Assembly: GCA_018902385.1 (NCBI GenBank)
Contig: JABSSW010000035.1
Location: forward strand, 434,001 to 498,000
Direction: 5' to 3'
Source of the DNA: Physcia stellaris
Taxonomy: Eukaryota; Ascomycota; Lecanoromycetes; Caliciales; Physciaceae
DNA length: 64,000 nt
In this document: in pieces, positions 14,370-64,000 of the stretch
How the letters are laid out: every line of letters starts with the position of its first letter
Position numbering within the stretch: position 1 is the stretch's first letter
The notes under the pieces: model-generated
What the model was told of the DNA's origin: nothing
What the model saw: the letters and a program-made list of their open reading frames with translations, nothing else
The model's database searches: none
Made by a program: the position numbers and the translations under genes

Positions 14370-15112
14370 CGATAGCAGTAAGAGTTTAAATTTTATCCCT
14401 GTATATGAGCTATGTCAACGTATCTTTATTTTTCCCTTTTCTTCACGTATTGCTAGCATTGCACAGTCTTTCAAGAATCTTGTCCTGGATTCCAATGTCA
14501 CTCTGCAATGTGGTACACCTGCGAATTTCTCGAGCCCCTTTCTCTGAGCGGTGCTTCTTTCTTGCATACTCTTAGCCAAATGCTGGCACTGTATCTCATA
14601 ATTATTGATGATCACTGGTGTGCTATTCAAGAACGATCTACACTGCACCAGTTTTTTCCAAAAACAAAACTGTGGGGGTTTTGGCGAAGCCAAAGCACGA
14701 GCGTGCTAGGAAAAGCTATTCTGTGGCCTGGCACCAATAGGTACAAAGTTCCTGTTCACGTGGATAGCCCAATGGGCAGACGACTACCTGACATGAGACG
14801 GAATAATTAAGACAAAGCATTTTTTGTTGCACACAACTTAATGCTTACATAGACAGGTACACGCCACCTTACCACAGTTGAAAGCGTAATAGCTGGTCGA
14901 GGCCGGTAGTATAAAGATGCTTGAGTAGCATAATTACATGATGCTAGGTTACAAGACATTGAACCCCTAGCTGCGGCTTCCGTCACGTCGCATGTATCTT
15001 TAGTGATAGCTAGAGCGTAGGAGAATCAAAATTCGAGGGACAGCGACCAGAGCGTAGGAGAATCAAAATTCGAGGGACAGCGACTAGAGCGTAGGAGATT
15101 CAATATCAATGG
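14370..15112. other. Intergenic with a 37-base tandem repeat
   Basis: Convergent gap between SDH4 and the SDR gene. No coding region is convincing; the tandem repeat at 15011-15103 is listed separately. Confidence 0.5.
15011..15103. repeat. Minisatellite, 37-base unit, about 2.5 copies
   Basis: Unit starts TAGAGCGTAGGAGAATCAAA and ends GGGACAGCGAC: copies at 15011-15047, 15048-15084 and a partial third to about 15103. The first two differ at only one position. It ends just past the stop of the SDR gene, so it is probably in that gene's 3' UTR. Confidence 0.9.
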
Positions 15113-15968
15113 CTACATTTTACTAGGCATCCTCATCCCACCGTCCAGCCTGATCACAACCCCATTCAGCATCGAGTTCTCTACACCCTCTTTCACCACC
15201 CGTGCAAATTCCTCCGGCTTTCCAGGCCTTTTCGGAAACTCCATCACATTAGTCAAGCTGGCTCGGACCTTGTCGCTCATCAACGCCGTCATACCCGAGT
15301 CGAACAAACTCGGTGCAATGGTTACAACTCGAATTCCATACCTCGCCAGATCCCGTGTCATGGGCAACGTGAGCGACGCTAATGCTCCTTTCGAAGCGGA
15401 ATAGGCCACTTGTCCTGGCTGGCCGTCGAAAGCCGCTGATGAAGAGACCAATACAATAACACCCCTCTCTCCGTCCGGTGATTCTGGCTCAACCTGTGAA
15501 AGGTGTGGGACCACCTGCCGCACCAGATCAATTGATCCTCGGACATTAATGTTCATGACGAAATCGAAACCCGTTATATCCAAGGGCTCGCCGTGCCGGT
15601 CAATGATCTTAGCTGGACTGGAGACACCAGCCGCAGCAATCACGCCTCCAATCTCCTTTCCTGTTCGTTTAGCCCAACCCAGGGCGCCTTGAACGGCAGC
15701 GGCTATACTGTCTGTTTTTGAGACATCGGTTTCAAAGAAGATGGCACGGTCAGCGCCGAGTTCTCGAATGAGGTTTGGGCCAGCTTCGGTGTTCATGTCA
15801 AGGATGGAGACATTGCCGCCCGCAGCAACGAGGGTGCGAATAGTGGCTCGGCCAAGGCCAGACGCCCTGGAGATGGTGTTGTTAGATCGATTGTAAATCT
15901 CGGATCGGATGGGAGTAAAGAAGGACCTACCCACCAGATACTATGAATGTTCTCCCCTCGATCTTCAT
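15113..15968 (-). CDS. Short-chain dehydrogenase/reductase, HSD17B10-like
   Basis: NAD(P)-dependent oxidoreductase of the classical SDR family, nearest in pattern to type-2 3-hydroxyacyl-CoA dehydrogenases that act in fatty-acid or branched-chain amino-acid breakdown. Exons: 15968-15931 and 15866-15113, giving 263 residues; a 64-base intron sits inside the cofactor motif. Rossmann motif SGGASGLGRA near the N-terminus, acidic LDMN after beta-2 (suggests NAD), AAAG in place of NNAG, catalytic VSSSAAFDGQPGQVAYSASK with Tyr and Lys, and a C-terminal LDGGMRMPSK. The substrate is not determined by sequence. Confidence 0.88.
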
Positions 15969-25700: not shown

Positions 25701-26263
25701 GCTTCAAGACTCTTTTCGGTCGAGGTGAAGCGAGGAAAGCTGCAAGAGCAGACAAAGCGGCAGAGAAGGTAAAAGAAAAAGACGTTGAAGTTGAAGATAC
25801 AGATTCTGCACACGAAGAGCAGTCTCCGCAGAACCCACGCTTGTCTCGCGATGCCCAATCGATTGTGACATCTGCCTCGGTCTCTGAGTCTCATGAATCT
25901 CTCGACCGCTCTACTTCTGGTACTCCCTCTGAAGCCGCGACTCCTTCTACCCCGAAAGAGACCTTGATGCAACGGCTCAGCAGGAAAGGCAGCTCAAGCA
26001 AATTTAATGTCCCGTGGGGGAAAGACCGCAGCGGCTTTTTCGGTAGAAAGACCGGAGAGCCGTCCACTCCCAACGGCACCCCTCGTATCGAGTTCGATGA
26101 GGATGCTGGTAGTGACAAATACGAGGAAAGCCCGCATATCATAGAGAGAAGCTCAAGGAGCAGTCTATCGTGGCCGAACATCAGAAGGAAAAGCAAGAGA
26201 AACGGGATCTTGGCAACCGAGGCCAAAGACACCGACAGTGAAGGTGGCAAGGATGATGAGTAA
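22787..26263 (+). CDS. Fibronectin type III, coiled-coil and low-complexity protein
   Basis: Large protein of unknown function. Likely exons: 22787-22914 (weak donor GTGGCA), 22986-23179, 23234-24270 and 24317-26263. The acceptor at 22985 is supported by a GGCTAAC branch site; the first exon is uncertain. The N-terminus has a hydrophobic stretch before ILYRIWQIYKKPVDEL, then an FN3 domain (PPAPEVSLAGITSDSVVLYW, HVNGIHVGEMNKGEASVQV, PGHFYNIRVIASSSANF). Next comes a long coiled coil (about residues 240-430) rich in Lys/Glu/Gln, followed by some 650 residues of Ser/Pro/Asn-rich disordered sequence with SPQNPRLS-like phosphosites. This layout occurs widely in filamentous ascomycetes; a membrane-tethered scaffold is inference. 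Confidence 0.75.
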
Positions 26264-26856
26264 GTACATACGGCTCTTGGTGCCGTACTGCGCCGGTTCG
26301 ACAGAAGAGCGATACTGCGTATCGAGGCTGCTATAGTCACGTAGCTGTATAGAGCATGCAGCATAGGTACTCTCATTCCCGTCAAACGCCAAATAAACAG
26401 CTTTGAGAGTGATCGCTATTTCTCGGCCCCTAGTGTCTGTCATAATCCCATCTATGCCATCACACAATTATACTTAAGGTGCAATTTCAAACACCTCATT
26501 GCCTGCTATTTGGAGAATGTTGCCTTCTAAAGGGGTTCGTATCATCCAAAATAGCTCCACCAAAACCGTAACAATCTCAAATCTTGGACGCTCTCAATAG
26601 GAAGGCACTACAGAACTTAAGCCATCTTCCGTAACCAACTCCTAACACGCTATCGCAAAAAGGATATTCCCTTGAATCTGGTATCTCTGAACAATGGCCT
26701 GCACCACGAACGCACCGGATCCACCGGGATAGGTCAATCTTCCCAGACGCCTCCATCCTGTTAGCCATAAACTCCATACTCCTCACTTCCGGCTAATATT
26801 AGATCATGACAGAACGTTCGCTATGCTGGTCGTTATTCTTCCTTCCCTCCTCCGTC
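26264..26856. other. Convergent intergenic region, FN3 protein / UPF0658
   Basis: 593 bases between convergent genes; nothing recognisable. Confidence 0.5.
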
Positions 26857-34320: not shown

Positions 34321-35937
34321 ATGGCAGATTTTGATCAAGTCACTAACCAGCATGAAGTTCCTGTAGCAATCCGTAAACGAAGTACGGATAGTGCAGCTCA
34401 TACAAAGCGTAAACTTGACGACTTAGAATCAAGCTCCTCTTTGTCACCTGCATCGCAACTAGCCTCACCTACCGAAGCCGCTGCAACCAGTAACATACGC
34501 ACTGCACGTGTATCGCCTGCGACTTCATCAAGCTCCATGGACACACGACCACCGCCACCCGCAACAAGTATGGCGCAGTTTCAGACTTTCGGGCCTAATC
34601 CATCTACTTTTGATGATCCCACCGTATACCACATTCGTGAGGTCACAGACGACATGACCGAAGACGCAAAGAAGGAGATCTACTGCGTCAGCTCGTTTCC
34701 CAAAAGTGATTTGGGGCAATTGATCGCGGGGACTTTGCCCGACAAAGACTTCAGTAACGCCAAACCGACCAATCAAGTCAATGCAAATACTTTTATTGCT
34801 TACATTGATCCCTATGTACGACCGCTGACGGAGGAAGACATGGCTTGGCTCAAAGAACGCGTGAGTTGTGTGTTCTGATTTCCTCTTGTATGAGTGCCTC
34901 TTGATTAACAACTCTTTTAGGGCGATCGAGTTGGTCCATTTATAATGCCATCTCGTGGAAAAAGGTCCTATAAAGATGTTTGGGCAGAAGAGGATGGTCA
35001 CATCTCCATGGACGACACCCATCACGGCGAGCGGCTACCTGCAAATCAAGCTCGCGGCAGTCTCGAAGACATGGATGACGACACAGCGGAAACAGATCAA
35101 GTCTCCATGGGTCCAATGATGAACCGCTTTATGTCTACTATGCGCTTCGAGCATCGCGCGTCACCCGTAGAAGACAAAGAAAAGCCAAACGGTCTCACGA
35201 ATGGCGACTCAAGCACGAATGGTCTCGCCAATGGCACTGATCATATGGATCCCAATAATGGCAATACTGAAGACAAATCGGTTCCGGCTGCGACATATAT
35301 GCCCGAAAACATCCTCCCCGCATCTGCTCGAAATCCCAGCAACGCGCCGAAACTTACAGGCGCCGAGATGGACGAGCGTCTCAAAGCCGAACTCCGGCAT
35401 CTTGGCTTCCTAGCGCCAGACGCTGAACCAGATTACGACGGGCATTTTGACGATGAGGTAGCCGAACGTCTCCGTATCTTACAAGCGGAGCTCAAACGCG
35501 TAAGCATACTCAACGGGGCTCGAAAAGCGCGCATCGAACAGATTGCCAAAGAGCGCATGGCGTATCAAGAATACAGCACCATCCTCGACGACTTGAATGG
35601 TCAGGTGCAAACTTCATTTGCTAAGCGGTCTCGCAATGCGAAGAAGAAGGGCCAAAATGCCAAACGTCCGGGAGGTGCTGGGGGTGGTAGCCATCCGGTT
35701 TCCGCGGCTGGCGGCGCTGGAGGAAGCGGTACATCTGGAGTTGCAAGGTCCGCCGTAATTGGAGACCAAACCAGACAACTGATGCAGCGAAGAGAAAAAT
35801 GGACCAATCAGATTGGACCGATATTCGATGACGAGGTTACCAAGATCCGAGAGGATGGCGACAGTATTTTCACGGACGATGTCATGGAGCCGCTGATCCG
35901 TGCGGAAAAAGAACGCTGGGACGAGGAGGCTGAGTAG
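34321..35937 (+). CDS. NGG1: SAGA/ADA histone acetyltransferase adaptor Ada3 (Ngg1)
   Basis: Links Gcn5 and Ada2 in the acetyltransferase module of SAGA. Exons: 34321-34860 and 34921-35937, giving 518 residues with a 60-base intron at a codon border. Signatures: [20 protein letters not shown] then [20 protein letters not shown] in the middle, and the C-terminal Ada3 domain [53 protein letters not shown] Gly/Ala-rich insert ([18 protein letters not shown]) interrupts the basic region. With TAF9 it is the second SAGA subunit in the window. Confidence 0.92.
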
Positions 35938-36831
35938 CTTCCCATGTTTTTGAACCGTTTCACGTCTTTGAAATGCTGTATGAATTAAGGCAGGGCTAGG
36001 CATGCATCGCGGGGATCGATTTCTGGCATTTCCAAGGAGTTTTAAAGCGAGTGAACCGTAGGTGGTACCGGGAGGATTTCTCGAGGGGGCATGGACTATG
36101 TAGGATACGAGAGAACCACCTCCTGAACCCATCATCTTCTTTAGATAATCCAGTAGACTCATAAACAAGATGTCTGCACTGTCCTTCCTCGGTCGCTGCT
36201 AAATACTGTCCATGAAGATTTCTGGATGAACACTACCTTCAAATGTCTAGATCAGCGGCTTCGGTGATGAAGTATCAATCAGTCTTGTTGCAAGTCAGGA
36301 TCAAAGTAATTTTAAAGAAATATCATGAGTTAGGGACAACGTGAAGTGTTCCATCTTTCAAACAGAGTGTGGAAACCTGAGCTGAGGTAGATCTTATTCT
36401 TGTTCGATGCTTTCGATGACTGTGAGATGATTACTCAACATCCTGCTAAGCCGTGGTTCAATAGGAATAACCATTCCTCTGGAGAACGTTGTCTGCCACT
36501 TCAAGGCTTACCATCCGGGAACCTCTATGCTGCTTGTAGTCGATACCGCCATAGTTGAGATTGGCACCGTTTCCACAGACCGATTCTCTGCTATAAAAGA
36601 GGTTTTCAGCCGTTGTTTGACTTGCCATCAGTATCCGCACTAGTCACAGCAATAACTCGCTATATTGAGAATGTTCCTCATGCGCTGTGGGGCCAAGAGG
36701 GACGGCGCAAGTCCACTTGATTGAAAGGAGCTTCGGATATAGACACGCGCCTTTACACTGCCTTTTGCATCTCTCTTTGTCCTAGATCACGAATAAAAAT
36801 GTGAAAGGCCAACACTCTTAAAGGGCAATCT
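35938..36831. other. Convergent intergenic region, ADA3 / CYT-4
   Basis: 894 bases between convergent genes; only shadow frames and no repeat or RNA gene. Confidence 0.5.
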
Positions 36832-41266: not shown

Positions 41267-43467
41267 TCACTCTATCTCAAGAAGCTGGTATTTGCCACTG
41301 TGCTTATCGAGTGCGGCTTCTATTCTTTCCATGACCGCCAAAACCTTCTCCTCCTGAAGGCGCTGGCCAATAATCTGGACAGCCACTGGTAGGCCGTGCA
41401 TACTCATTGCGTTATAATGCTTATAGGCGCCATTAGCCACACCGTTCAGACTTTTGCTTCGAAAGTCAGATGGCAAGCGGTCTAATGCCTTATCAACTTT
41501 CGTCACGGGTATGATACCAGCTGGATAGTCAAGCTACAGAATGCGGTCAAACTTCTGGGATGGAAGACTCGCCGGGTTGAACATACCAAGTTGAAAAGAA
41601 AAGTGTAGCCGCAGCTACTGACGGCATCCTTCATCCCAGCATGGGGAACGGCGGGTGTTGCGTTAGGCGGTGTGAGCATAAAGTCCAGCTTGGCTTCATT
41701 CTGCCACCAATCATGCCACTCCGCTTTATAGGCCTCTCTTTTCGCTACCCACTTCCATTGCTCAAACGCACTTTTCTCGTGGAAGTTTGCCAGAAGTCCG
41801 GCCCAGATCGCATCCTGTCGAATGTATCTTACCCATAAATAGTACAAGAATTTGAACGGTTTAGGAATACCCATATACAAACTCATCTGAGCGGCTCCTG
41901 GGTCATTCCATTCTCCAGTACGAAAGAACGAACGAAAAGTTCTACATCCATCTGAGTTGAGGAGGTTGGACCCAATGACTAAAGCCTCATAGGGAGATGG
42001 CGGATCCACGTCAACAATCTCATGGCCTTCTGACTGTAATGCGGAGACAACCATGTCCAAGGCTCTCGCGCAAGCGGGAGATGGCTCCACCACACCTAGA
42101 TTGTTAGTTGGAAAAGCCGCCAGAACTCGATTTTGACATACCATCACTGTGCAACACGCCGATCTTGAACTTCGCCTTTTCTCTTGTATGCTGCTCTAGC
42201 GCCGATTGCCAGGCGATTGGGTGTACGCTGTGATCGTACTCCCAAGGCTTCATTGAGATCTGTTGGTCATTCCGGACTTAGCATTACTGTTGTCTGCTAA
42301 GCGTTGAGCTGCAAGACTTGTCCCGCCACACACTCCTACGAAATGTCTTGGAACCCTGGAAAAGATCTAAATCCAATGTGGAAGCGCTCCAAAAGACTTA
42401 CTAAACTCCGTGAAAAATATATCAGATCTTCCAAAGTTCTAGCCATAGGGCTGAATACGCTCGGTATACCTTCTTGTCCCGGCATGCTTGTGTTGATGCC
42501 CGTTTTGGGCCATCCTGTTGGTGGATCGAGAGTCAGCACTTTCAGTCCTGGATGAGAGTCGAATTGTTTGACATTCCTATCAGGCTCGGGGCTTTACAGA
42601 CACATTTCACGGCCTTGGTTTGAGTTCTAGAGAGGCTGGCGAGTGCTTCACAAAGACTTACGACCGGTTGAACATCGTAAGGAGTAAATGCCACTGAAAT
42701 GTGCCGGAGCTCGGACAGAGCCAGCAACATCGGATCCTATTCCAATCCTACCACCACCGTAGGCCAAGAGTGCACCTTCCCCGCCCGTCGAACCGCCTGG
42801 TGAATAGTTTGGATTGTGAGGGTTGGTGCACCTGCCCCAAACGTCGTTGGTGGATTCGAACGAGAGAAGTGTTACCGGAAGGTTGGTCTTCACATACGGT
42901 ATAGCCCCTGGGCGGGCTCGTCACCATGTGGCCAATAAGGAGGTTTGACATACTGACCAGCATCCTTGAGGAGTTTCACCATGATGCCATCCTGTACGTA
43001 CGGTTTACCAGTATTACACGAGTATCCCACACTAACGTCAAATCCACCAACCGCTACGGAGTCCTTCAGGGACACTGGGATTCCAGCCAGAGGGCCCTTC
43101 AAATTGATTTCGGAATCTGCCCAGCGCTCTGCGGCATGAATCATCACCTCCGTTAGACAATTGGTTTCCGCGTGTGCTTTGATTGCAAGCTTGCCATAGG
43201 TCCGAAGAATATCAATTGGCTTGAGTGTGTGCTTATGTACATCTTGCACAAGGTTCTCCACGGGCTTTTCCAATATCTCACGATCAGCACGGGAAACTGG
43301 GCCGTGGTAAGCAGCAGGCAGATTGGCGATTCTGGTTGTCCGCTCGAGCTGCTTTCTCTGGCTGATAGACAATGACGTCAGCTCAACGTGTGCTTGTCAA
43401 TATTTCTGCAACGCAATGCAACTCACCAATCTCGCCGATGCTCGAAATAATCGAATGGCGGTAGCAT
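41267..43467 (-). CDS. Amidase-signature enzyme (acetamidase/general amidase type)
   Basis: Hydrolyses amides to acid and ammonia; in fungi such enzymes release nitrogen from acetamide and related amides. Seven exons: 43467-43427, 43361-42958, 42907-42665, 42514-42402, 42259-42142, 42095-41587 and 41533-41267, all phases matching, giving 564 residues. Catalytic triad of the family: Lys in GIPVSLKDSVAVGG, Ser in SPGGSTGGEGALL and nucleophile Ser in GSDVAGSVRAPAHFSG. C-terminal GLPVAVQIIGQRLQEEKVL is typical. The intron between exons 4 and 5 is 142 bases, longer than the others. No signal peptide, so probably cytosolic; the natural substrate is unknown. Confidence 0.93.
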
Positions 43468-44700
43468 CTCGAAATACCTAGTTGAGTCATCTGTTGTGCC
43501 CAAGGTTTGTCTTATCCTCGAGATTCGGTTGGGAGCTTCACCCCGCAGCCTGCAATGGAAGCTTGGGCCACCAGGCTCTGGGCGATTGGTTTTAGCTGCC
43601 GCGGCTTCTGGACCGAATTTCCCGACTCTTGAGCTTTCGAAGGGCGGCTGGGATAAGACTCAAGATTGGTTACAACAATGATTGCAATACTATGCTGCTT
43701 GAAGTCTCAATCCTCGATCAAGTTTACATGGACTCGAAACGCTCAGCTTGGCTTTTTTGGAATTATGCCGATTAACATAATTTGATTGCGTTGGTCACAA
43801 CTCTCGAGATGAAGCAGCGAAAGTTGTACGATAATGACATCTAGGTGTCCTACCTCTTACTAAATATTATAGCCTTCATCTTTCTCTCATGACCGGTACG
43901 GATGACCTTCGGAGATCATAAGAAGACATCATCCAGAGGATATCCTAGCGGTTTTCAAGAAATTGATCCGACAAGATTGCGTCCTATCCAAGGACGGAAT
44001 CACGCCAACGTTCTGTACCACTGCACAATCAACACACTGCGCGAGATTGCTACTGGTGTCTTGATATAGATCAAAATATCAGGGTCATGTCACTCGTCAG
44101 GTTTAAATTTGGCTTGAGCTGCAGCGGAACGGTAACAGGCATTTTAGTCGACGTAATAATTGCTCTTCAGATTTACTGGTGTAGCGTAGTGTTGCCAAAT
44201 TGGGCTGTCTGGAATTTTGGTGGTTTCTCCCAGCTAGCTGGAAGTCGTGTCAGGCCATTTCAGTGGTTGTTCATTGTCGCTCAGACTGCCGCTGCACCAA
44301 AACGGGCAGTAAGCGCTGCCCGCGGAAAGACCCGAAAGAGCCCCATTCAGGGTCCAGACCACCATTGGATGAAAAAGAAACAGTCTGAAACCGATGGAGA
44401 ATTCCAGGAGCGACAGTCTTAGAAACTTGGGCTAGGAAGAATTCGGTGGTAGATGGTGTTGAATGCATATTTAAGAGGCCCAAGGTACCACCGTACTGTC
44501 TCCCATCGCTATTTACCACAGTCCATTTCTTTACAGATATCCCGTCTCTTTAATTTCCTAAGTCTCTTTTCTCCTTAAGACATTCATTATCTAGACTTTC
44601 CTTGGTCGACACTATATATCGTCCTGCCGCTCGTTGATTGAACGATTGTTCCATTCGGTACATCCAACTTCGTGCAAATCTCCTTGACATCAAATCCATA
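43468..44700. other. Divergent intergenic region, amidase / MARVEL protein
   Basis: 1.23 kb. Open frames at 43496-43681 and 44087-44422 lack any recognisable feature. Probably promoter sequence for both genes. Confidence 0.45.
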
Positions 44701-45381
44701 ATGGCCGGATCGAATGGCGCTCTTGGTGGGACCTTCAAAATCGTAAGGATACTTCAGATTGTATCCTTGATCGCCATCATCGGCATGGCTTCGAATTTCA
44801 TTTCGGAGATGGTGTCTAGCAACAATGCACCTTCCGATGTTCTAGTGGGAACGCTCAGTGTGGTAGGTATCCGTGAGACAACTACGTTGAGGACTGTGGC
44901 TTACCCGATCTTCTAGACTTGTATTGCGGTCCTGTACTGTGCGATTACGTACATATTGTATCTCGACAATATCCTACCATACCTCATTATTACCGGATCA
45001 GATGGCGTGGTGCTCGTCGCTCTGGTAGTCGTTGCGGTCGTCGTCGGTAAACCTTTATCGTACCTCAATTGCAGGGTTGTTGGAACATCCAGCATGGCCG
45101 AATCTGCGTATCAGCTCGGCGCCGAACTCAAAGACAGTCTTCACAGCGAAGGCGGGATGGTGAAATACAGCAATTGGATCGGCGCAACCAAGGTCACATG
45201 CTATGAGATGAAAGCCATCTGGGGGCTCAGCATTGCGCTATGGTAAGTACAATCCATGTAGAGCATTTGGGGTAGTACTCCGCTAAGAGATCCTAGTATA
45301 CTGTTCACCTTTTCGGCCATCTGCAGCGTCTGCCTTTGGCGTCGCAGCAAAGTGGTGGCGCCCAAGGATATCGAGGGATGA
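44701..45381 (+). CDS. MARVEL-domain four-helix membrane protein
   Basis: Small membrane protein with four hydrophobic helices, probably in plasma-membrane subdomains or vesicles (family inference). Exons: 44701-44862, 44917-45242 and 45297-45381, giving 190 residues; both introns are 54 bases. Helices: IVRILQIVSLIAIIGMASNF, TCIAVLYCAITYILYL, GVVLVALVVVAVVVG and, across the last intron, WGLSIALWCILFTFSAICSV. The tail WRRSKVVAPKDIEG is short and basic. Function is not determined. Confidence 0.8.
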
Positions 45382-46314
45382 TTGTGCACAGGGCATGAAA
45401 AGGTTAACGAGAGGAGTGGTGTGCTGTGGTCGATGAGAGGACATTGATGGTCAGCGGCGACGGCAGACGCAGCAGCTAGAGAATTACATAATCGGGGGTT
45501 TTGGGGTGTATTGTAGAAACGAGGCGTCTCCCGTAGGAGTGGTTCTGCTTAGAGTCCGGATGGGCCAGGGCGAGTACCGTGAGGCAGGTAGCGAGCTACC
45601 CAGCAACAAACTTTATGCATGCATGAATCGATTAGCACGCCTCAGGCCACGTCGTGCAGCGCTCGCCTCATGCACGGGAGATGGACACAAGCGTTCTCGC
45701 GCGGACAGTGTGAACGTTGGGTGGTATCGAAGATGCTTTGATCATGACTCGTGCTCACCGACCTGGAACAAGGCCGTGCCGAAATGGCTTGCTTGCTTTG
45801 GTCGGACGTGGGCGTAGGGTGGATTGGGGCAAGAGGAGCCGACGGCGAGGGTGAATGAAGGCAGCTCAGACAGTTGTAAAGTTGTAGCGTGAAGATTCCA
45901 GCGCTGTGGTTGAGTTGCCCGACAGCGTGGACTCGGTTCGGTGGCTGCTTCGCTAGACTCCATTTCGCTAGATGCTGATGGATCACCGTCGACCAGTGCC
46001 CGTGGCCCCGTTTCTTGGGAATCTCAGCACCCACCCCCACATTTAACTCACTACTGCTACCCTACACTAAAGGTACTCCATCCTTGCTGGCTTTCTATCC
46101 GGCCAGAGGCGCAAGCCTCCGACTAGAGTCCTCCGACTAGAGTCCCACAACTAGGTCATCAAAAACTCATCCAGTTCTCTCTTTTCGCATGGCCTGCAAC
46201 CACCGGACCTTCTCGGCCTGCTCTCTCTCCTCCTTCCTCTCCCTCCAACCTTCCAAGGAGGATGCTGTTGGATCTGTGCTCGCCATAATACTAATGCCTA
46301 TCTGACCCTTTCCA
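45382..46314. other. Intergenic, promoter of the LaeA-like gene
   Basis: 933 bases without a supported gene. CCTCCGACTAGAGT occurs twice in tandem near 46114-46143. Confidence 0.45.
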
Positions 46315-47961: not shown

Positions 47962-48589
47962 TTTCAATCCAGCAATTTAGCGTGGGTAGGCCGCACTCCA
48001 AGGCAACATGACTGGCGCGGCGTTGTTTTGATTTCCAAACTAAACGGGTAGTCTGCTTTTTTTCTTTGTTTTTAAAAGAAAAAGAGATATGTTTTTTTAC
48101 AGAATTACAGTCCTGCTTCATCAAGACTCGGGAACCGCAGTCTTTCCAATGTTCTTGAAGTAGATAAAGATTGCTTTAGCCTAGCGCACGGACGTGGCGT
48201 TGTTGCATCACTCCCGTTCGATGAGGGAAAGGAACGATGAGGCTAATTGTTGTAGATGAATCGGACCGCTCTCATCGTCCCGGTTTCGCTTTCCGAGAAA
48301 AATGAGACTCGATGGAAACTTCGCTCGATTCATCTCTGCTGTTTTCGTTGAAACGGAATCATCCTTTTTTTGAGAGTTGAGTGCCTTTTGCTTCACGACA
48401 GACTCCACTAGTATTTCTACCTTCATCCTATTGCTTACCCAAGACCCCGAAACCGCGCAAACCTTGGGTCTGGAGTGGAGTAGAGAATCACCATCCTGGC
48501 TCACGGGGTAAGATTCGATGGCACGCACCCAGAAAGCCACCACTCGATTCTATCGCCCTCCACCCCATCCTCGAGGGAAACTACCTACG

Positions 48590-48776
48590 TATTCCTCCCA
48601 TCTTTTTCCCTCTGTCTGTACTTACCCTCTCTCCCTCTTTGTACAAACCACCCCTAACCAACCAACTATCCCCTTTTATTTTCCTTCCGTTTTCTATCAA
48701 TGCTCTCCTCTCCTTTCCCCCTCTTGTTCTCAACTCTTTCTCTCTTCTTTTCTCTCTCTCTCCCCCCGTCTAGTTT
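48590..48776 (+). repeat. Pyrimidine-rich tract
   Basis: Long run dominated by C and T on the plus strand, becoming almost pure near 48700-48770 (CTCTCTCTCT then CCCCCC). Such tracts occur in fungal promoters and long 5' leaders and can form triplex DNA; no downstream plus-strand gene is evident. Confidence 0.6.
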
Positions 48777-49022
48777 CCTGAATCCGTGAAACCTCTCTCA
48801 ATCTTACTTGAAGGCTCGTTCTTATGCTGGGTGCAGGAGGACGGATGATGATGTTCGGGAGGGGAGAGCTAGGATATGGGGGTTTGGTGGTATGGGGGTG
48901 GATAGGAGGGAGGGGAACGAGGAGGACAGAATTAGTCGAATCTGAATGGAGAATGAATGGATTGAGAAGAGGAGGAGAATGATGAGAATGAGGAGTTGGT
49001 GAGATGATGAAATGACGATATT

Positions 49023-49086
49023 GACGGTCTGACGGTTGGACGGTTGGACGGTCTGACGGTTTGATGGTTTGACGGTATGACGGTTT
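49023..49086. repeat. Tandem repeat, 8-base unit GACGGTTT, 8 copies
   Basis: Eight contiguous units of GACGGTNN (GACGGTCT, GACGGTTG, GACGGTTG, GACGGTCT, GACGGTTT, GATGGTTT, GACGGTAT, GACGGTTT). Confidence 0.9.
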
Positions 49087-49429
49087 GGGGGTACATTTGA
49101 CATAGTAGATGTCAATGGCTACGATTAACAAGGACAGAAATCAAACCTGAAGTTGAGATAAATCATGTTTCTCTCCAAGCGAGTAACAGCCAAAGGAAAG
49201 ACCACGAAAGGCGAGAGATTACAGGATAGCGCAGACGAAGCCTGAGAAACAAATTTTCCAAAACGAGGGTGTTTTCATATCATAGATTCACCTCGATCCT
49301 CCCTCACATATCCAACAACTTCATCCTACCTTCACCCCCAGAGCTTCCTCCCCTTCCTCCCCCCCCCTTCCCGTTCCCACCTCCCTTTCCCACCTTCATC
49401 ATCCATCGCAGTGAGAAAGCCAGCCAGTC

Positions 49430-50055
49430 CTAAGAAGGCGGAGGCCCCTCAAACGTATGCCCGACCTCAGGCTGCCAGTCCAAGCGGTCCTTGCCGAAGA
49501 TCTCCGCCGCGACCTTGAAGCTCTTGCCGCCCTGCAGCAGGCCGGTACGCACGACGATCTTGTCGCCCAGCGCGGTCTGGTGGTGGTAGGCGTGGGTGGT
49601 GCAGTTGGGGCAGTAGTAGCAGTGGACGGGGTTTCCTGGAGGGGGGTTGTTAGTGAGGTGGGATTGAGATGGGAGACTGTGTGAGAGGGTTGGGGGTAAA
49701 TGGGGATAGCTGTGAGGACGGTTGGGCAAATGGAGGATATTTGGGATGTTTGGGTAGGAAAGGAGGTTGAAAGGGAAATGTACCAGAGTCGCCGGTGTAG
49801 GTGTACGTCTTGACGGTGCCCTTGGTGATCTTCAAATCGTCCTTTCCAGCGATCTGGTTGAGGGTGTTTTCACCGCCGCTGAGAAGCTTGCAGGCATCGC
49901 AATGGCTGTACGAGAGTTTAGCATTGGTGGAGTGAATTGCCATTGAGTGTGAAGGTGGTTAGGGCATACCAGAGGATGTGAGCCTGAGACTCCTGAGGCA
50001 ATTCGACGGTCCATTCGGTTTGGCCGCAGTGGCATCGTCCGGTGAAAGAAGGCAT
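49430..50055 (-). CDS. GFA / CENP-V-like zinc-binding protein
   Basis: Member of the glutathione-dependent formaldehyde-activating enzyme fold. Exons: 50055-49970, 49905-49784 and 49635-49430, giving 137 residues. Zinc ligands lie in CHCG near the N-terminus, HCDACK at the start of exon 2 and CYYCPNC in exon 3. The first intron has 64 bases; the second (148 bases) is long and T/C-rich on the coding strand. Many fungal members are of unknown activity, so the formaldehyde role is only a family label. Confidence 0.88.
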
Positions 50056-55733: not shown

Positions 55734-57433
55734 TTAAGGAATCCGCACCTCTGGTGCATCCTCAGCCTCGTCCTCTAATCGGTCCCGAGCCATGTTTCGA
55801 CTTTTATGCCAGACGTAGCCTACCAGAGCGACTCCAACCACAAGAGCGACAATAATCAAGATGACATTGATTGGTATGGGATCGCGATGAAAGATCTTAT
55901 GAGTAGCAGCGTCTAGCGCAGACTGAATAAAGTTAAGTACCCCGGCGAGACAGATGATGAGACCGTAGACCTTTCCGAAGGTATGGAAGCCAAAGACTTT
56001 GGCTGAATAGTCAGAGACGGCCGTGTAGTAGAAAGGTCGGTAAAGCGTAAATAGAATAACGTTTGCATAGGCTGCCCACAAATATGGTAGAACGCCAAGA
56101 ATGCCGATCGTTGTTGCGACAGCCACAAGCACACCAAGCACAAACGGAGTACTGGTATTATCGAGAATAAGACCGATGAACGGGATTGAGAAAATACCAC
56201 CTACTGGCAGCGCGACATCGAAAATGTTATTGACATGTTTGGCCTTCAGGTCGTCGTTGAGCAGGTACTCATACTGTGTCCGTATTGTCGCAACAAAGTA
56301 GTTAATTCGGGTCATTTGAACTACTGTGAAGCCGGTGATCAAGATGAACCAAGGCGATTTGATTTGTTGAAGTGCCGAGCGTCCGTGCTGAGCTCCATGC
56401 ACTCCGCTTATCTTTTGCTTCTTCTGTTCCTCGCTTTGCTGCTTTGTAGCTCCTTTACTTCCAAGGAGCGACGTTAACTCGGAGACAACACTTTCTCTAT
56501 GCGCGCGACGCTCGTCTCTCATTTGCGTAACTTGATCTTCATTCCTGTCGTTCCAGTCCGCAGGGTTTTCGTCGTTCTCTGGATTTTCCGCATTGCTGAC
56601 AAGCTCACCCACAGTTTTGTAAGACCTTGACGGCATGAAGAAGATTTGGACGACTAGAAGGAACGCTGGAACAACTAAATAGACGAGGAAGAATTTTTGA
56701 GGCTTGAAGGTCCCATCCGAGGCTTCATACGCCAAACGATAGAATAGGAATATTGCACTGGACGAGTCGAAAGCTCCAGTAAGGAGTGCTAGGATAAGCC
56801 CAGAGTGATTCGGGAACGTATTTGAGAGCTGAAAAGAAGAGATGAAGATGAAGGGCCCGCCGAGAGCAAGGAAGAGGTAACCTGGAATGTAGGCGTCAAA
56901 CGGCAAATTTGGAGCTAAAGCAAGAAAGATAGCCCCGATGGCCAGTAGGACGCTGCCTATGATCCCACTGACTCGAGGGCCATACCTATCAAGTAAGGTA
57001 CCAACGGGTAATGCAACGACATTAGTCGCAACCGCCGCGGTCGTGAACATGATGTTAAGCCTGATGAAAAGAACGATAAGCGAGCCATGACGCTGGGTAA
57101 GATGGTGAATGCCTACCTGATTTCTTGCTCGTAGCACGCTCTCTCGCCCTCGATCGCGGACTCTGATAATGATGAGCAGTACTGGCTGTAAACTCCTTCT
57201 TGTACAAAAACCGGTCTGATGGCAGCATAGCCAAACACCACACCGGCGGAGAAAAGACAATAGATCACCGCAATAGCGACTTGTACTGTACGGGGAACTT
57301 CAACACACCACGAAACACAGAGATAGATGGATTTGTACTAACGTATTCGCTTCCATTTAGGTACTTCGAACGCTCCGATCGGCTCCTCTTTGGCTGCTGG
57401 AGGTAGGCTTGTTCCCACTGGGTTCAAGGACAT
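55734..57433 (-). CDS. Major facilitator transporter, Fmp42/SLC43-like
   Basis: Twelve-helix transporter of the group that includes yeast Fmp42 and animal SLC43 amino-acid carriers; substrate not known. Exons: 57433-57343, 57297-57117 and 57060-55734, giving 532 residues; introns are 45 and 56 bases. Short polar N-terminus (MSLNPVGTSLPPAAKEEP), VPKWKRI before helix 1, and FSAGVVFGYAAIRPVFVQEG. MFS loop motif LLDRYGPRVSG between helices 2 and 3. A central charged loop (NPENDENPADWNDRNEDQ) separates the halves, and RPFYYTAVSDYSAKVFGFHT is typical of the group. It is the last gene before the AT-rich block. Confidence 0.88.
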
Positions 57434-57980
57434 CTTGCGATACTCGGATCGAGCAGGTGAGGAGCCACGAACATGCTCGTAGGACTATTCAGAATTCCGG
57501 AGTCAGTGATCCCGATCCGAGGTAAACGCCGAGTGAGATGGATGTTGTAATTATCCAGTTGATACTTCCCAAATATATCTCGTGACATCGGACGGATCAT
57601 GAAGGTAGAAACTGGGGGAAGACTTACGCCCAAAGAGCTAACTCTATGTAACGACATAGCGGCAGGAAGAGAAAGAGAAAAAGAAAAGGGATGTCCTTCG
57701 GAGAAGCCCGTTAGGCTCTGACAGATACAATGAATAGATCAATGATGAACATAGCGAGAATACAGGGTTGACTATCCAAAAAGCAGCCTGTCAAGTGATA
57801 GCTTGGTGTAACATATCGCGAGTGGGATGATGCTAAATAAGTACGGGTAGGGAGATTTTAGTCAAGGCGGGGGTGGAGGCAAATGTGACAGTGCTAGGAG
57901 CTTACAGCTCAACCGCTTTACGAAATATCTCGGCCACCCTAAAAACTATCGGCTTGGCATATGTGACAAGTTTGTAAAGC
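57434..57980. other. Intergenic boundary to the AT-rich block
   Basis: Promoter of the MFS gene in normal composition. The switch to AT-rich sequence occurs over some tens of bases near 57950-58000. Confidence 0.6.
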
Positions 57981-58193
57981 GATTGAACATTTAACGCATG
58001 CAAAAATTGACGCGTTCATCGCATTATTTCGTAAATAAACAAGCATTACAAATAACATGATTAAAATACATTGAACATGTGTTGATTTTATGTTCGATCG
58101 CATGCGCATGATAAAAAATGTGATTGATTTCGATAAAAAAAATAAATCAACAAAAAAAGTGAAAAATTGATGTCATTTAATGCAAATGTTTCG

Positions 58194-60025
58194 CATATGC
58201 GATCAATAAATTTGCGAAAAACGACGAGACAAAATAACAAATTGCATGTGTTTCGCATATGTTGACAATTCGTTCGAAAATTTCAATGTTTTGATTTTTC
58301 ATTTTTCGTTTTTTTTTCGATGAATTTTTAATTCAACATATTTTCAACACGATTATAACGCAAGTTCGTCAATATTGCATCGCATATATTGTAATAATCA
58401 ATTTTTTATCAAAATTTCAACATAAGTACAACATATCGTCAACATAAGCGAAATCGTGAACGTCGAATATCGATTTTTTATTCGTTCGACAATTGACGAA
58501 ATTGAAAATTGAATTGAAAAATTTGATTGAATGCATGATAAACATATGTTTTGTATGTGCGAAATTTATGATTAATCGTTGCAAAATCAATTTCGTACGC
58601 GAACAATGATTGATTGTTCGAAAATGAACATATGTAAAGCATGTGTTGTTTGTTTTTATTGACGTTCACAACGATTCAAAAAATGATGAATCGTGACGAA
58701 TCAAATGAAAAATACATGAATTTCGATAATAACATATGTTGAACATATTCAAAATTTCAAATAATTGTTGAAATGAACGCGAATACGATTTGTATTATGT
58801 TTCAAATGCGCATATGTTGAACATTTGCAAAAAACGACGAATTGACAAAAATATTAAATCAATGCAATATTCGCGTGTGAATATCGCATATATTGAAAAT
58901 TCAAATATTTGAAACATGTGTTGATCATATGTTAAATGCGATGTAATCGTAAATGATCACGAAATCATGTGCGACGTCAATTTTGATTCGCAAATGACGA
59001 TATGTTTATTCAAATTCAACATTTTTTCAATATATGTTAAATTGTCAAATTTCGTCGTCACATTCGTAACGTTCATTTCGATGTCGATAAATGACATACG
59101 TCAATTCAAAAACATATGTTAAATTTATGTAATAAAAAATTTCGATCGTTTTAATTTTGAAAACATCGAACGACGCAAAAACGAAAAATATGTTTTGCAT
59201 GTTTTCAACATATGTTAAACTAATATTGTTTAATGTTATTTTTTTTTGAATTCGTTCGAACGAATGACGCGATGTCATGTATCAAAACGAATTTGAATAA
59301 ATTCATCATATGTTCAATATTTACGACGACGAAACACGACATATGTTGAATTTACACAATATTGATTCATTCAATGAATATTTCGATTCGTTGATCATCA
59401 AAATGATTATTTTGACGTTTATTATTCAACACATGATACGCATATGTTCAATTTACATTCACAATCGTCGTCATTCAATTTTTCGTGTCGAATACGAACA
59501 TCGATTTCATCGCGAAACATGTGTCAAAATTTTTGATCATCATTGAGCATATGTTGAATATTTGTAACGAATTTTTTTTTTTTTTGATTTCGAATTTCGT
59601 CGTCGCAAAATATGTTGTCATGATTTTGATCGATTCGACATATGTTGAATTTGTGAAAACGTGATTTCATTTTTTCAATTCGTTTTTCGTCCAAATTTTC
59701 ATTATCGAAAAAACGTAAATCGAATTTTTATTTAACATATGCGAAATTGATGTCAAACAAATAATTCGTTCGTCGCAAAAAAACGTGCGTTTGATTCAAA
59801 TGTTTTGCGCAATGTTTTCGATAAATGTTTATATTCAGCATATGATACGCATGTTTGACAGTTGATTAATTTTGCGTTCAAATAAACGTTAAATTGTGTC
59901 AACTCGTTTTATGATAAACATATGTTTTGCATGTAATTGAATGATAAAAATTGAAATGATGAAAAATTCGTTGAAAATGTTTGATATTTGAAAGTGTGAA
60001 TGATCATGCATATGCATGACATATG
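58194..60025. repeat. Spaced CATATG-centred repeat motif, about 18-19 sites
   Basis: CATATG starts at 58194, 58256, 58543, 58629, 58733, 58811, 58926, 59113, 59209, 59307, 59340, 59441, 59548, 59639, 59736, 59839, 59919, 60009 and 60020. Most read CATATGTTGAA or close to it. Many neighbours are 78-115 bases apart; a TATATG at 59031 fills the largest gap after 58543. This may be an eroded satellite with a unit near 100 bases, or an array of binding sites. Confidence 0.75.
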
Positions 60026-60120
60026 CGTTTTTGTTTGTAAATTTGCTTTAATTGTTGTTCGATTGAGCAAAAAAAAAAATTGTTTATGTTTATTCAAAAT
60101 CATTGTGCAAATTGTACAAA

Positions 60121-61075
60121 TCGTTAAATCGTTAAATCGTTAAATCGTTAAATCGTTAAATCGTTAAATCGTTAAAATGTTAAAATGTTAATCGTTAAAT
60201 ATTAAATCGTTAAATCGTTAAATCGTTAAATCGTTAAATCGTTAAAATGTTAAATTGTTAAATTGTTAAATCGTTAAATCGTTAAATCGTTAAATCGTTA
60301 AAATGTTAAAATGTTAATCGTTAAATCGTTAAATCGTTAAATCGTTAAATCGTTAAATCGTTAAATCGTTAAATCGTTAAATCGTTAAATCGTTAAATCG
60401 TTAAAATGTTAAATCATTAAATCGTTAAATCGTTAAATCGTTAAATCGTTAAAATGTTAAATCATTAAAATGTTAATCGTTAAATCGTTAAATCGTTAAA
60501 ATGTTAAATCGTTAATCGTTAAATCGTTAAATCGTTAAATCGTTAAAATGTTAAATTGTTAAAATGTTAAATCGTTAAATCGTTAAATTGTTAAATCGTT
60601 AAATCGTTAAAATGTTAAATTATTAAAATGTTAATCGTTAAATCGTTAAAATGTTAATCGTTAAATTGTTAAATCGTTAAATCGTTAAATCGTTAAAATG
60701 TTAAAATGTTAATCGTTAAATATTAAATCGTTAAATCGTTAATCGTCAAATCGTTAAAATGTTAAATCATTAAAATGTTAATCGTTAAATCGTTAAATCG
60801 TTAAATTGTTAAATCGTTAAATTGTTAAATCGTTAAATCGTTAAATCGTTAAAATGTTAAAATGTTAATCGTTAAATCGTTAAATCGTTAAATCGTTAAA
60901 TCGTTAAATCGTTAAATCGTTAAATCGTTAAATCGTTAAATCGTTAAATCGTTAAATCGTTAAATCGTTAAATCGTTAAATCGTTAAATCGTTAAATCGT
61001 TAAATCGTTAAAATGTTAAAATGTTAATCGTTAAATGTTAAATCGTTCGTTAAAATGTTAAATGTTAAATCGTAA
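60121..61075. repeat. Minisatellite of TCGTTAAA units, about 120 copies
   Basis: Continuous array of an 8-base unit TCGTTAAA with variants ATGTTAAA, TTGTTAAA and TCATTAAA and some 7-base units. Runs of pure units alternate with a composite marker AAAATGTTAAAATGTTAATCG, seen near 60175, 60300, 60695, 60855 and 61012, so a higher-order repeat exists. Confidence 0.97.
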
Positions 61076-61263
61076 AATAATTAATAAATTAATGAAAAAT
61101 TGAATAAACATATTTTATAAAAAAATATTGTTTTTTTTTTAAAAAATTATTATTTTATTGAATTAAATCAATTTTAACAAAAATTATTAAACATTTAATA
61201 TTATTTTTCGCACATTGCATATCAATTAAAAATTTAATATAATTTTTGTTTATTTAATTAAAA

Positions 61264-61415
61264 TTGTTAAAAATTGTTTCAAAAATGTCACGTGACAATT
61301 TCAATAAAATTAACGTCGTCGCAAAACGAATATGTAAATATTTTTTATACACATTCAAATAAAAAATCAATTAATATTTATTCAATCACAAGCAATTCAA
61401 TTTTCGTTGTAACAA
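61264..61415. repeat. Duplicated segment, copy 1 (152 bases)
   Basis: Same orientation as 62959-63111 and about 97% identical (about five differences by eye). Begins TTGTTAAAAATTGTTTCAAA, contains GTCACGTGAC and ends GTTGTAACAA. Confidence 0.93.
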
Positions 61416-61846
61416 TTGATAACATCATTTATTCGATGACGTTCGTTTAATTATTATGTAACATTCATTTGTTGTGCAATATTTAATTTCAATAAAACAT
61501 TTAATTTGTTTGACGATAACGATTTCAATTGTTTTGCAACATTTAATCAGAATATTTCGTTCGAAAACATTTATTCATCTATTCATTTATTTATTTATTT
61601 TTTTATTTTTTTACGAATTTTATTTCGCAATATTTTATTTTTTATTCGCACGTCATGATTTTATTATTGTTCGTATTTTTATGTCATTGTTTTCGTGACG
61701 CATTCAAATTTGAATTTTTTTAACGATTTTACGAAATTCATCAAAATTACGATTTCGATTGCGAATGAATTCGAAAAATTCGCAAAATTTTTAATCAAAA
61801 TTACGATCGTTCAGAAATCGAGCAAATATTTCGAAATTCAAAACAA

Positions 61847-61948
61847 CAACAAATCGAACAAACTCGTTTAATCAAAAAACGTCAAAAAATCGAACAAATT
61901 TGTTTGATCAACAAACGTCAAAAAATTGAAAAAATTCGTTTTTACAAG
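61847..61948 (+). repeat. 36-base imperfect tandem repeat with coding-like reading
   Basis: Copies at 61847-61882, 61883-61918 and a partial from 61919. Thirty-six bases is twelve codons, and one plus-strand frame reads as a repeated RQKIEQI / LIKK pattern like a coiled coil. A similar stretch occurs again near 62010-62070. Confidence 0.65.
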
Positions 61949-61996
61949 ATTTATTTGATTCGTCAAAAACAATAAAAACGAAACGAACAAACACGT

Positions 61997-62410
61997 ATGT
62001 TCAAAAAACAACAACAAATCGATAAAAAAATCGAACAAATTCGCATTGCGAAAAAGCAAAAAGAAATTCGTTTGACGATTTTTGCATATAAACGTTGTTT
62101 TGTCAAATATTTTAACAACATCAAATTTCATAAACATATTCGCGATTATCATACAAAAAAATCGAAATTTGTTGTTTCGAATTCGTTTATTTTTTTATTT
62201 CATTTTTTATTTCATTTTTTACGTCATTTGAATCGACAATTTTTTCAAAATCGATATTTTTTTGATTTGATAATTCGAATTTTGCATCGCAATCGAAAAT
62301 TTTATCGTTTATTTTATTTTTTACATTTTCAATTTCGATATTTTTATCATTTTTTACATCGAAACGAATCATTTTATCGAAAATTTCATTTTTTTCGAAT
62401 TTTGTATTAG
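61997..62410 (+). other. 137-codon open frame in the AT block, doubtful
   Basis: Opens MFKKQQQIDKKIEQIRIAKK and then turns into Phe/His/Arg/Tyr-rich sequence. The amino-acid content mirrors the base bias of the block, so it may be chance or a decayed gene. No domain recognised. Confidence 0.2.
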
Positions 62411-62958
62411 AATTCGTATTCAAACGTTCAAAAAATGCATTGTTTATTTCGTTTTTTTCGTTTTTTCAAAAATTCGTTGCAATGCGATCAACAGTTTTTT
62501 ACAATTTATTTTCGAAATTTTATTTGACGATAAATGATTTGTTTCGCATATTTGTTGAAAAATTCAAATCAATAAATTTGCAATATCATTCAAAACATCA
62601 ATTTTTTTCGCGCATTTTTGACATTTCGAAACGAAATTTCACGCAAACGCGCATTATCGTTTATTTTTTATTTATTTTTTTTGTTTCGAAATCGACGAAA
62701 TTCGAAATTTTCACATTAATGTATGATTCGATTAAACAATCGATTCGCATATCATTTTCGCGATTTTTTTTTCATTTCGATTTTTTTTTAATACGATTTT
62801 TGTTTTCGACAATTTTTTATTTTTTTTTTGTTTGTTGACGTTGTCAAAAATTTTTCGTCATTTATTTGTTTAACGATTGATTTTGATTAATTGTCGCAAA
62901 AATTGAAATATTTATGAAACGACGAAAACGTCGTTTTTTTTTTAAAAAAATGAACATG

Positions 62959-63111
62959 TTGTTAAAAATTGTTTCAAAAATATCACGTGACAATTTCAAT
63001 AAAATTAACGTCGTCGCAAAACGAACATGTAAATATTTTTTCGTACACATTCAAATAAAAAATCAATTAATATTTATTCAATCACAAGCAATTCAATTTT
63101 TGTTGTAACAA
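62959..63111. repeat. Duplicated segment, copy 2 (153 bases)
   Basis: Partner of 61264-61415. Contains ATCACGTGAC where copy 1 has GTCACGTGAC. The flanks of the two copies are unrelated by eye, which marks clear duplication edges. Confidence 0.93.
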
Positions 63112-64000
63112 AAATTGTAAAATTCGATCAAAACAACAAAAATTCGATTAAAAAAACAAATAATATCGAAAATATTCAATTTTTTGTATATTAATCGATT
63201 GTTTTTTGTTTGTTTTATATTGTTAATATATTTTATGAATTTTTTACAATTAAATCATATAAAAATCAAATTATTAATATTTTTTTCGTGTTCAATTAAT
63301 GAAATTTAATGTGTTTTTACACGATTTTTTTAATTATTATTATTTCATTTAATTTACGTATAAATATACATAATTCAATAAAAAAATTCGATAATATACA
63401 AACATTTAATAATTGAAATATAATTACATTCGAAATTTATTTGAAATTATCGATATATTTTCAAATATTTCGAAACGTTTTCAAATTTTATTATTAATTA
63501 AAATATTTGTATAATATTTTTTTCAAATCATGATAATTTTTGAAATATTTATATAAAACATTTTTTATAAAAAAATGTTTTGTGTTTTTTTTTTAAATTT
63601 TAAATTAATTGAATAAAAAATCACAAAATTTTCAAAATTCAAATCACGAATATCAAAATTTGATTATTGCGTTTATGTAATATTTTGTAATTTGCATATC
63701 AATCAACAATCACGTATAATTTTCAATTATTTGATTTAAATTATAAAACAAAATAAACGCAATTCAACGTTGCAATAATAACAAAAATTGATTCATATTT
63801 GCAATAATTATGAAATAAACAAATAACATTGTACGCGAAATTGTTGTCGAAAAATCAATTTCGAATTCATTATTCAAAATACGTTTACGTATTCATTTTC
63901 AAAATATTATTTCAAACATTTTATATTTATTATACGATTTATTTTGAATTTCGATTTGTTTATTATTGCAAAAACACGTTAAACGATATTACGAAAACAA

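Follow-up and report, generated by a model that had tools for sequence, protein, structure and literature searches.

The closest described relative of the pattern reported here is repeat-induced point mutation (RIP) of the Neurospora type, for which the published order of dinucleotide preference in N. crassa is CpA > CpT > CpG > CpC (PMC5496416). The present analysis concerns the right-hand end of a 64,000-nucleotide stretch of Physcia stellaris DNA (contig JABSSW010000035.1, positions 434,001–498,000; hereafter the window), where an AT-rich block has lost almost every C that precedes a pyrimidine (CpC and CpT, together CpY or CY) and has kept CpG at the level of its flank. In the published accounts of RIP compared here, each represented by excerpts, CpA, CpT or CpG dominate and CpC comes last where the dinucleotides are ranked. 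CpA is about equal to CpG and CpT exceeds CpC in T. reesei (PMC5496416); the signatures across ten fungal genomes are CpA, CpT and CpG (PMC4352252); CpA is reported for Mycosphaerella graminicola (PMC4522978) and for ribosomal DNA (rDNA) pseudogenes, with CpT higher in N. crassa (PMC5555474); and Monilinia combines CpA change with double changes that include CpC to TpT (PMC8959702). In Monacrosporium haptotylum repeats CpA is not reduced, TpA is high and TpG is low, from which the authors infer another preference (PMC3828140).

CpT change by itself is common in fungi. Anisogramma shows CpA and CpT signatures (PMC10998396), Colletotrichum truncatum shows CpA or CpT, with TpA/ApT of 1.59–1.68 in its Copia and Gypsy families (PMC6180176), and a CpT component also appears in alignments of large retrotransposon derivatives (LARDs) of RIP-capable control fungi (PMC7882544). 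CpT change exceeds CpA change in Neurospora Tad1, and Stagonospora, in which CpA is dominant, has an unexplained CpT change in short rDNA repeats (both PMC2621366). Methylation by DIM-2 is described at all CpN with CpT preferred (PMC13297926), and a study of C-to-G changes under 5-azacytidine contains, in the part available, nothing on mutation specific to CpC or CpT (PMC13207899). No description of a joint loss of CpC and CpT with CpA and CpG spared was found in the excerpts compared, and among the matches listed from Creative Commons-licensed PubMed Central articles none has CpC- and CpT-specific mutation as its topic, as judged by title and start of abstract.

The depletion of CY in the block is real and exceeds what had first been described. 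We tallied the share C/(C+T) by the next base on both strands, with a tandem octamer array inside the block excluded from whole-block totals and the left flank (Table 1) as the baseline for all comparisons. Only 28 of the 2,490 pyrimidine-before-pyrimidine positions of the block are C: 1/560 before C (0.002; flank 0.438) and 27/1930 before T (0.014; flank 0.498), a shortfall of more than 99% for CC and of ∼97% for CT that is present on both strands, being seen as GG and AG as well. C before G stands at 520/1163 (0.447; flank 0.442) and C before A at 643/1405 (0.458; flank 0.600). Flank segments of 2,121 bases (50-base steps) never fall below a share of 0.427 for C before a pyrimidine, and the six flank windows of lowest GC (0.42–0.43; 500-base windows, 100-base steps) have 0.36–0.42. 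The signature is common to three unlike kinds of sequence, namely a region with CATATG boxes (sub-block B1), the 8-bp tandem array and the relic of a long terminal repeat (LTR) retrotransposon. The transition is abrupt: RG and CY dinucleotides (R, purine) occur at ordinary density through 57978 and the subsequent ones start only at 58042 and 58158, with no partial conversion in the 500-base windows adjoining the edge (56501–58000). The local counts of the earlier note, which had pointed out the block, are exact: CC, CT, GG and AG are all zero in 58681–58800 (30 C+G) and in 59281–59520 (71 C+G), and TA and AT occur 4 and 12 times in 58681–58740. Its statement that both CA and CG are kept applies to CG over the block as a whole, with the short piece 61079–61259 (2/16) as an exception; for CA it is nearly borne out in 57980–60100 alone, the level elsewhere being lower.

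Table 1. Features of the window (positions count from its first nucleotide).
Feature	Position	Strand	Details
Ordinary gene-bearing fungal flank	1–57978	.	GC 0.49; baseline
Sharp left edge of block	57970–57985	.	From RG/CY dinucleotide positions
CY-free AT-rich block	57980–64000 (to window end)	.	GC 0.09–0.28 by sub-block
Sub-block B1	57980–60117	.	Complex sequence; 19 CATATG boxes; cleanest CY→TY signature
Tandem octamer array	60118–61078	+	AAATCGTT, 122.5 copies; without CC, CT, GG or AG
Target-site duplication, left	61260–61264	+	AAAAT
LTR 1	61265–61414	+	150 bases; TGTTA...TAACA
Open reading frame relic in LTR element	61769–62407	+	Open 61769–61972 and 61976–62407, one stop between
Second open frame relic	62266–62835	+	190 codons without a stop
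LTR 2	62960–63110	+	151 bases; 4 substitutions and one gap versus LTR 1
Target-site duplication, right	63111–63115	+	AAAAT

The signature is cleanest in B1, for which the C/(C+T) counts cover 57980–60100. C is kept at 328/590 positions before A, 246/574 before G, 1/269 before C and 15/687 before T, and the differences from the flank have P values of 0.035 for CA and 0.55 for CG. Expressed as exposure, −ln(C kept/flank), the values are 4.77 for CC, 3.13 for CT, 0.08 for CA and 0.03 for CG. The loss is alike after A, G and T (after C the sites, 12, are too few), so that it is the 3′ base that sets the target. TCA and TCG in B1 (0.616 and 0.458) lie close to their flank values (0.671 and 0.443); in 61079–64000 TCG is 0.428 and TCA 0.374, all CA contexts being lower there.

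Of the two origins offered by the earlier note, a process that turns C into T when a pyrimidine follows or a build-up of the whole block from motifs lacking those pairs, the composition supports the first. A conversion of the flank in silico on both strands (99% of C before C and 96% of C before T, rates picked after the block counts were known) predicts the 16 dinucleotide frequencies with r = 0.977 for 57980–60100, 0.978 for 61079–64000 and 0.893 for the array. The summed absolute differences are 0.158 and 0.172 for 57980–60100 and 61079–64000, and the predicted GC of 0.251 compares with 0.278, 0.204 and 0.212 observed in the three parts. For the same two complex parts, in the same order, conversion of CA only gives r values of 0.218 and 0.376, conversion of CG only 0.430 and 0.494, a Neurospora-like RIP mix 0.532 and 0.672, and uniform loss of 55% of C, the next-best model, 0.835 and 0.915 with summed differences of 0.372 and 0.322. 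Judged by the counts, motif growth, ultraviolet (UV) damage, CpG decay, canonical RIP and uniform loss are rejected for B1 and, the altered CA level aside, for the LTR element.

The conventional RIP indices hardly register the block. With thresholds of TpA/ApT ≥ 0.89 and (CpA+TpG)/(ApC+GpT) ≤ 1.03, both are satisfied in one of the twelve 500-base windows of 58001–64000, the one at 60501–61000 (0.96 and 0.31) inside the octamer array, and 60001–60500 passes the second threshold only. TpA/ApT is 0.37–0.84 in the other 11 windows, a low level that agrees with conversion of CY to TY, by which no new TA is created. The contrasts that the earlier note drew with canonical RIP and with decay of methylated CpG thus both hold, the former by the low TpA/ApT and the poor fit of the CA-only and Neurospora-like models, the latter by the undiminished C before G and the poor fit of the CG-only model.

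Set against the described systems, the block resembles Neurospora-type RIP in its both-strand C-to-T and G-to-A signature, AT-rich product, repeat-rich setting and apparent filamentous ascomycete host, a likeness drawn from composition. It differs in that CpC is nearly gone and CpA is largely retained, and in the failure of the index criterion; since a CpA preference was tested and did not hold, we place the process outside RIP proper. The strong conversion of CpT to TpT is shared with Magnaporthe, Botrytis, Sclerotinia, Anisogramma and some C. truncatum families (PMC4352252, PMC10998396, PMC6180176), but according to the excerpts a CpA signature accompanies it in the first four, and the CpT families of C. 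truncatum have TpA/ApT of 1.61–1.67 (PMC6180176). DIM-2 methylation is similar in that CpT is among its preferred targets, CC being lost at least as fully as CT here; it acts on all CpN, whereas in the block CG is at flank level and CA in B1 is 0.556 versus 0.600, and mutation to saturation is not among the effects of DIM-2 described in the part of the source available (PMC13297926). The CpG-type repeat mutation of Microbotryum, or decay of methylated CpG, likewise involves methylation-linked C-to-T change in transposons (PMC4352252), but CpG is undepleted here.

Within the block, 61265–63110 is the relic of an LTR retrotransposon, with paired LTRs, TG...CA ends and a target duplication; a 5-base match at these fixed ends has a chance probability of ∼0.0045 with the AT-rich composition allowed for. 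In this element C remains at 12 of 984 CY sites where flank rates predict ∼477, so that ∼97.5% are gone. Apart from the one gap, the LTRs differ by C/T transitions only: two affect CA sites and two affect CG sites, one of these adjoining the gap. The four changes amount to a loss of ∼6% of the 33–34 C-before-purine sites of each copy since the copies parted. CY would thus have changed ∼60-fold faster than C before a purine, provided that conversion followed insertion; this does not follow if conversion preceded insertion or if homogenization acted on the LTRs, either of which the one CY site kept at the same place in both LTRs (61391 and 63087; TTGCTTGT) would fit. With a single CY site per copy the class is saturated, and the LTR pair, put forward by the earlier note as a check, is therefore uninformative on CY bias. 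The longest open stretches, of 190 and 144 codons, exceed those in all of 400 dinucleotide shuffles of 61079–64000; when the LTR interior alone is shuffled, 4/400 reach 190 codons and 1/400 a second frame of 144. When three read-through pieces of the element were compared with Pfam, neither Gag or Pol nor any other domain reached a curated cut-off (best match among the read-through frames of the block Lge1, E = 0.035). The relic was probably a short non-autonomous element. A 30-mer from its LTR has 0 matches in viral_contigs and 0 in genome_contigs.

We interpret the block as a repeat cluster mutated by a RIP-like, both-strand C-to-T process that targets C before a pyrimidine, spares CpG and spares or mildly depletes CpA, and give this reading a probability of about 0.6. 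The narrower proposal of a dedicated repeat-directed CpY mutator working near saturation, distinct from RIP in logic and in enzyme recognition, is held tentatively, at somewhat less than an even chance; if such a mutator exists, its preference for CpY over CpA in B1 is ∼40- to 60-fold, to which the conditional ∼60-fold estimate from the LTRs comes close, and that over CpG is higher. The missing sites would formerly have been CC and CT and would have become TC and TT, possibly through a host enzyme that recognizes repeated DNA and deaminates C either directly or through 5-methylcytosine. In the DNMT1 family it is the base 3′ of the cytosine that is read, in deaminases of the AID/APOBEC type the 5′ base. 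Because the specificity here lies in the 3′ base, as in DNA methyltransferases that read CpN, an enzyme of the RID/DIM-2 type (DNMT1 family) with shifted recognition would be likelier than a deaminase of the AID/APOBEC type. Such transitions would preserve the purine/pyrimidine pattern of the original, and the end product would be independent of the order of hits. Enumeration of the sense codons shows that CY→TY creates a stop from TGG only, whereas CA→TA does so from CAA, CAG and TGG, so that genes would be disabled by missense more than by nonsense. The mutator would erase the composition of a repeat and yet keep much of its reading frames, glutamine codons being spared, and long frames in the LTR element are what converted coding DNA should leave, since CY→TY is poor in nonsense changes. 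Among the 28 residual CY sites outside the array 27 are CT and ten lie in TGCT (10/190 TG-preceded positions versus 18/2,299 others; odds ratio 7.0, P = 2 × 10−5), an enrichment such as an enzyme with a taste for sequence would leave.

Several observations weigh against this interpretation. CA is lower towards the right (0.556 in 57980–60100, 0.475 in the LTR element and 0.384 in 61079–64000 as a whole), which calls for an AT-rich starting sequence or a real loss of CA. The two most AT-rich parts, which have no CY site, are the extreme cases: 63116–64000 (GC 0.163) keeps C before A at 88/302 (0.291) and before G at 56/144, and 61079–61259 (GC 0.088) at 14/66 and 2/16. If all of the CA exposure outside the array (0.27) is counted as loss, the preferences for CT and CC over CA fall to ∼13- and 20-fold, and in the LTR element, where CA lies below and CG (0.509) above the flank, to 15- and 23-fold; these opposite departures mean that the starting composition of the element was unlike that of the flank. 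Observed TA (0.062 in 57980–60100 and 0.085 in 61079–64000) exceeds the predicted 0.045. The LTR-to-LTR substitutions all precede purines, and copying after conversion may account for the shared CY site of the LTRs as well as resistance of the site does. In the array CA (0.128) and CG (0.824) are dictated by the unit, whose amplification perhaps came later than the mutation, and the fit of uniform loss equals that of CY→TY (r = 0.893 for both), so that the array cannot discriminate between the models. Residual CY sites are skewed between the strands (6/1,336 on the plus and 22/1,154 on the minus strand), for which we have no explanation. A purine/pyrimidine-coded search of the flank for an unmutated copy of the block gave only chance-like matches (exact 26-mers: 9 and 4 for the right-hand part and 0 for B1), and every C-to-T change is consequently deduced from composition. 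Pfam covered 27 of the 30 open reading frames (ORFs) of at least 150 residues in the window and gave no match to a methyltransferase or deaminase domain; the other three (25891–26385, 34528–35025 and 35614–36168) are on the minus strand and overlap plus-strand ORFs, and below 150 residues the scan was limited to three frames of 43300–45902, with shorter intron-split exons outside it. Finally, the signature is known from one block of 6 kb in one window.

A slow heterochromatic decay, in which CpT and CpC methylated by a DIM-2-like enzyme deaminate spontaneously at 5-methylcytosine with no dedicated mutator, would draw on the mainly non-CG, CpT-preferring methylation that a 2026 review gives for Neurospora DIM-2 (PMC13297926). 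We consider it unlikely, as the LTRs are still so similar when nearly all CY of the element has gone. CpG methylation in animals has a roughly 10-fold effect on mutation, and the ∼60-fold rate estimated above is well beyond this, with the same dependence on the order of conversion and insertion and on the LTRs having escaped homogenization. A cytidine deaminase of the zinc-dependent class, either AID/APOBEC-like or derived from a toxin, could leave a clean both-strand C-to-T signature in repeats if it attacked exposed single strands and favoured a 3′ pyrimidine; the 5′ reading of the known members, the equal loss after A, G and T, the TCA kept in B1 and the lack of such a domain in the 27 scanned ORFs make this improbable.

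The second proposal of the earlier note, that the block grew out of short motifs without CC and CT, is possible for the octamer array alone. It has very little to recommend it for the block, because neither B1 nor the LTR element is a single tandem array, both being of complex sequence and fitted by CY→TY, the LTR element holds open-frame relics and CG in B1 is at flank level. The sharp edge is the only feature that might suggest a sequencing or assembly artefact such as chemical conversion or a chimaera, and we find this scarcely credible: bisulfite-like conversion would not spare CA, the block encloses a structured element bounded by LTRs and a target duplication, and we know of no sequencing error mode that gives both-strand conversion limited to CY. 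CC and CT are also dipyrimidines, as damage of the UV type would require, but UV would in addition have stripped TC before purines, where TCA and TCG in B1 are near flank level, and the block edge is sharp; we attach next to no probability to it.

If genome-wide, the pattern points to a RIP-like process whose choice of target is the reverse of the one known in fungi. The common RIP indices are built to detect loss of CpA and gain of TpA; they would score a heavily altered block such as this as unaffected, and genomes with a CpY process of this kind could have been classed as RIP-free. The choice of dinucleotide by RIP enzymes is unsettled, and RID had no methyltransferase activity detectable in vitro in the account available in part (PMC13297926). 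A nearly digital, opposite preference for the 3′ base would, if true, be a natural specificity swap for comparison of sequences and structures.

Turning to the other features of the block, the octamer array has C at 0/88 positions before C and 0/385 before T. Split at TTA, it yields a main unit, TTAAATCG (68 times), and a second unit type, TTAAAATG (23 times), together with TTAATCG (10 times) and TTAAATTG (seven times); its right end lies ∼190 bases to the left of LTR 1. Four octamers in tandem match one contig of viral_contigs (L001), which has a GC of 0.57 and ordinary CY, and the match is attributed to chance. The CATATG boxes of B1 compare with 1.04 expected from its dinucleotides, and 13 of their 18 spacings are 78–115 bases; none occurs in 61079–64000. 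The core of ∼22 bases is weakly conserved, with no further column within 40 bases above the 99% threshold, and the row of palindromes may be a decayed satellite or a series of protein-binding sites. Open frames in B1 show no excess over shuffles (275 and 144 of 400 shuffles reach them).

Pfam matches among the flank ORFs include three cyt-4 domains, Ned1/lipin, Utp11, TFIID-31kDa, Ada3 and an INO4-type bHLH, with a Zn2-Cys6 cluster below threshold. Neighbouring ORFs match phosphoribosyl-AMP cyclohydrolase, PRA-PH and histidinol dehydrogenase, which we take to be the fungal HIS4 layout, and the flank genes point to a filamentous ascomycete. Scans for Rfam families and tRNAs gave no matches in the window. 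A short tandem array (TTGACGGT) occupies 49012–49087 within a stretch, 48001–50000, in which CC is raised and the GC dinucleotide lowered. A 37-base tandem repeat (2.5 copies, 15012–15103) adjoins a short-chain dehydrogenase ORF at 15113–15934.

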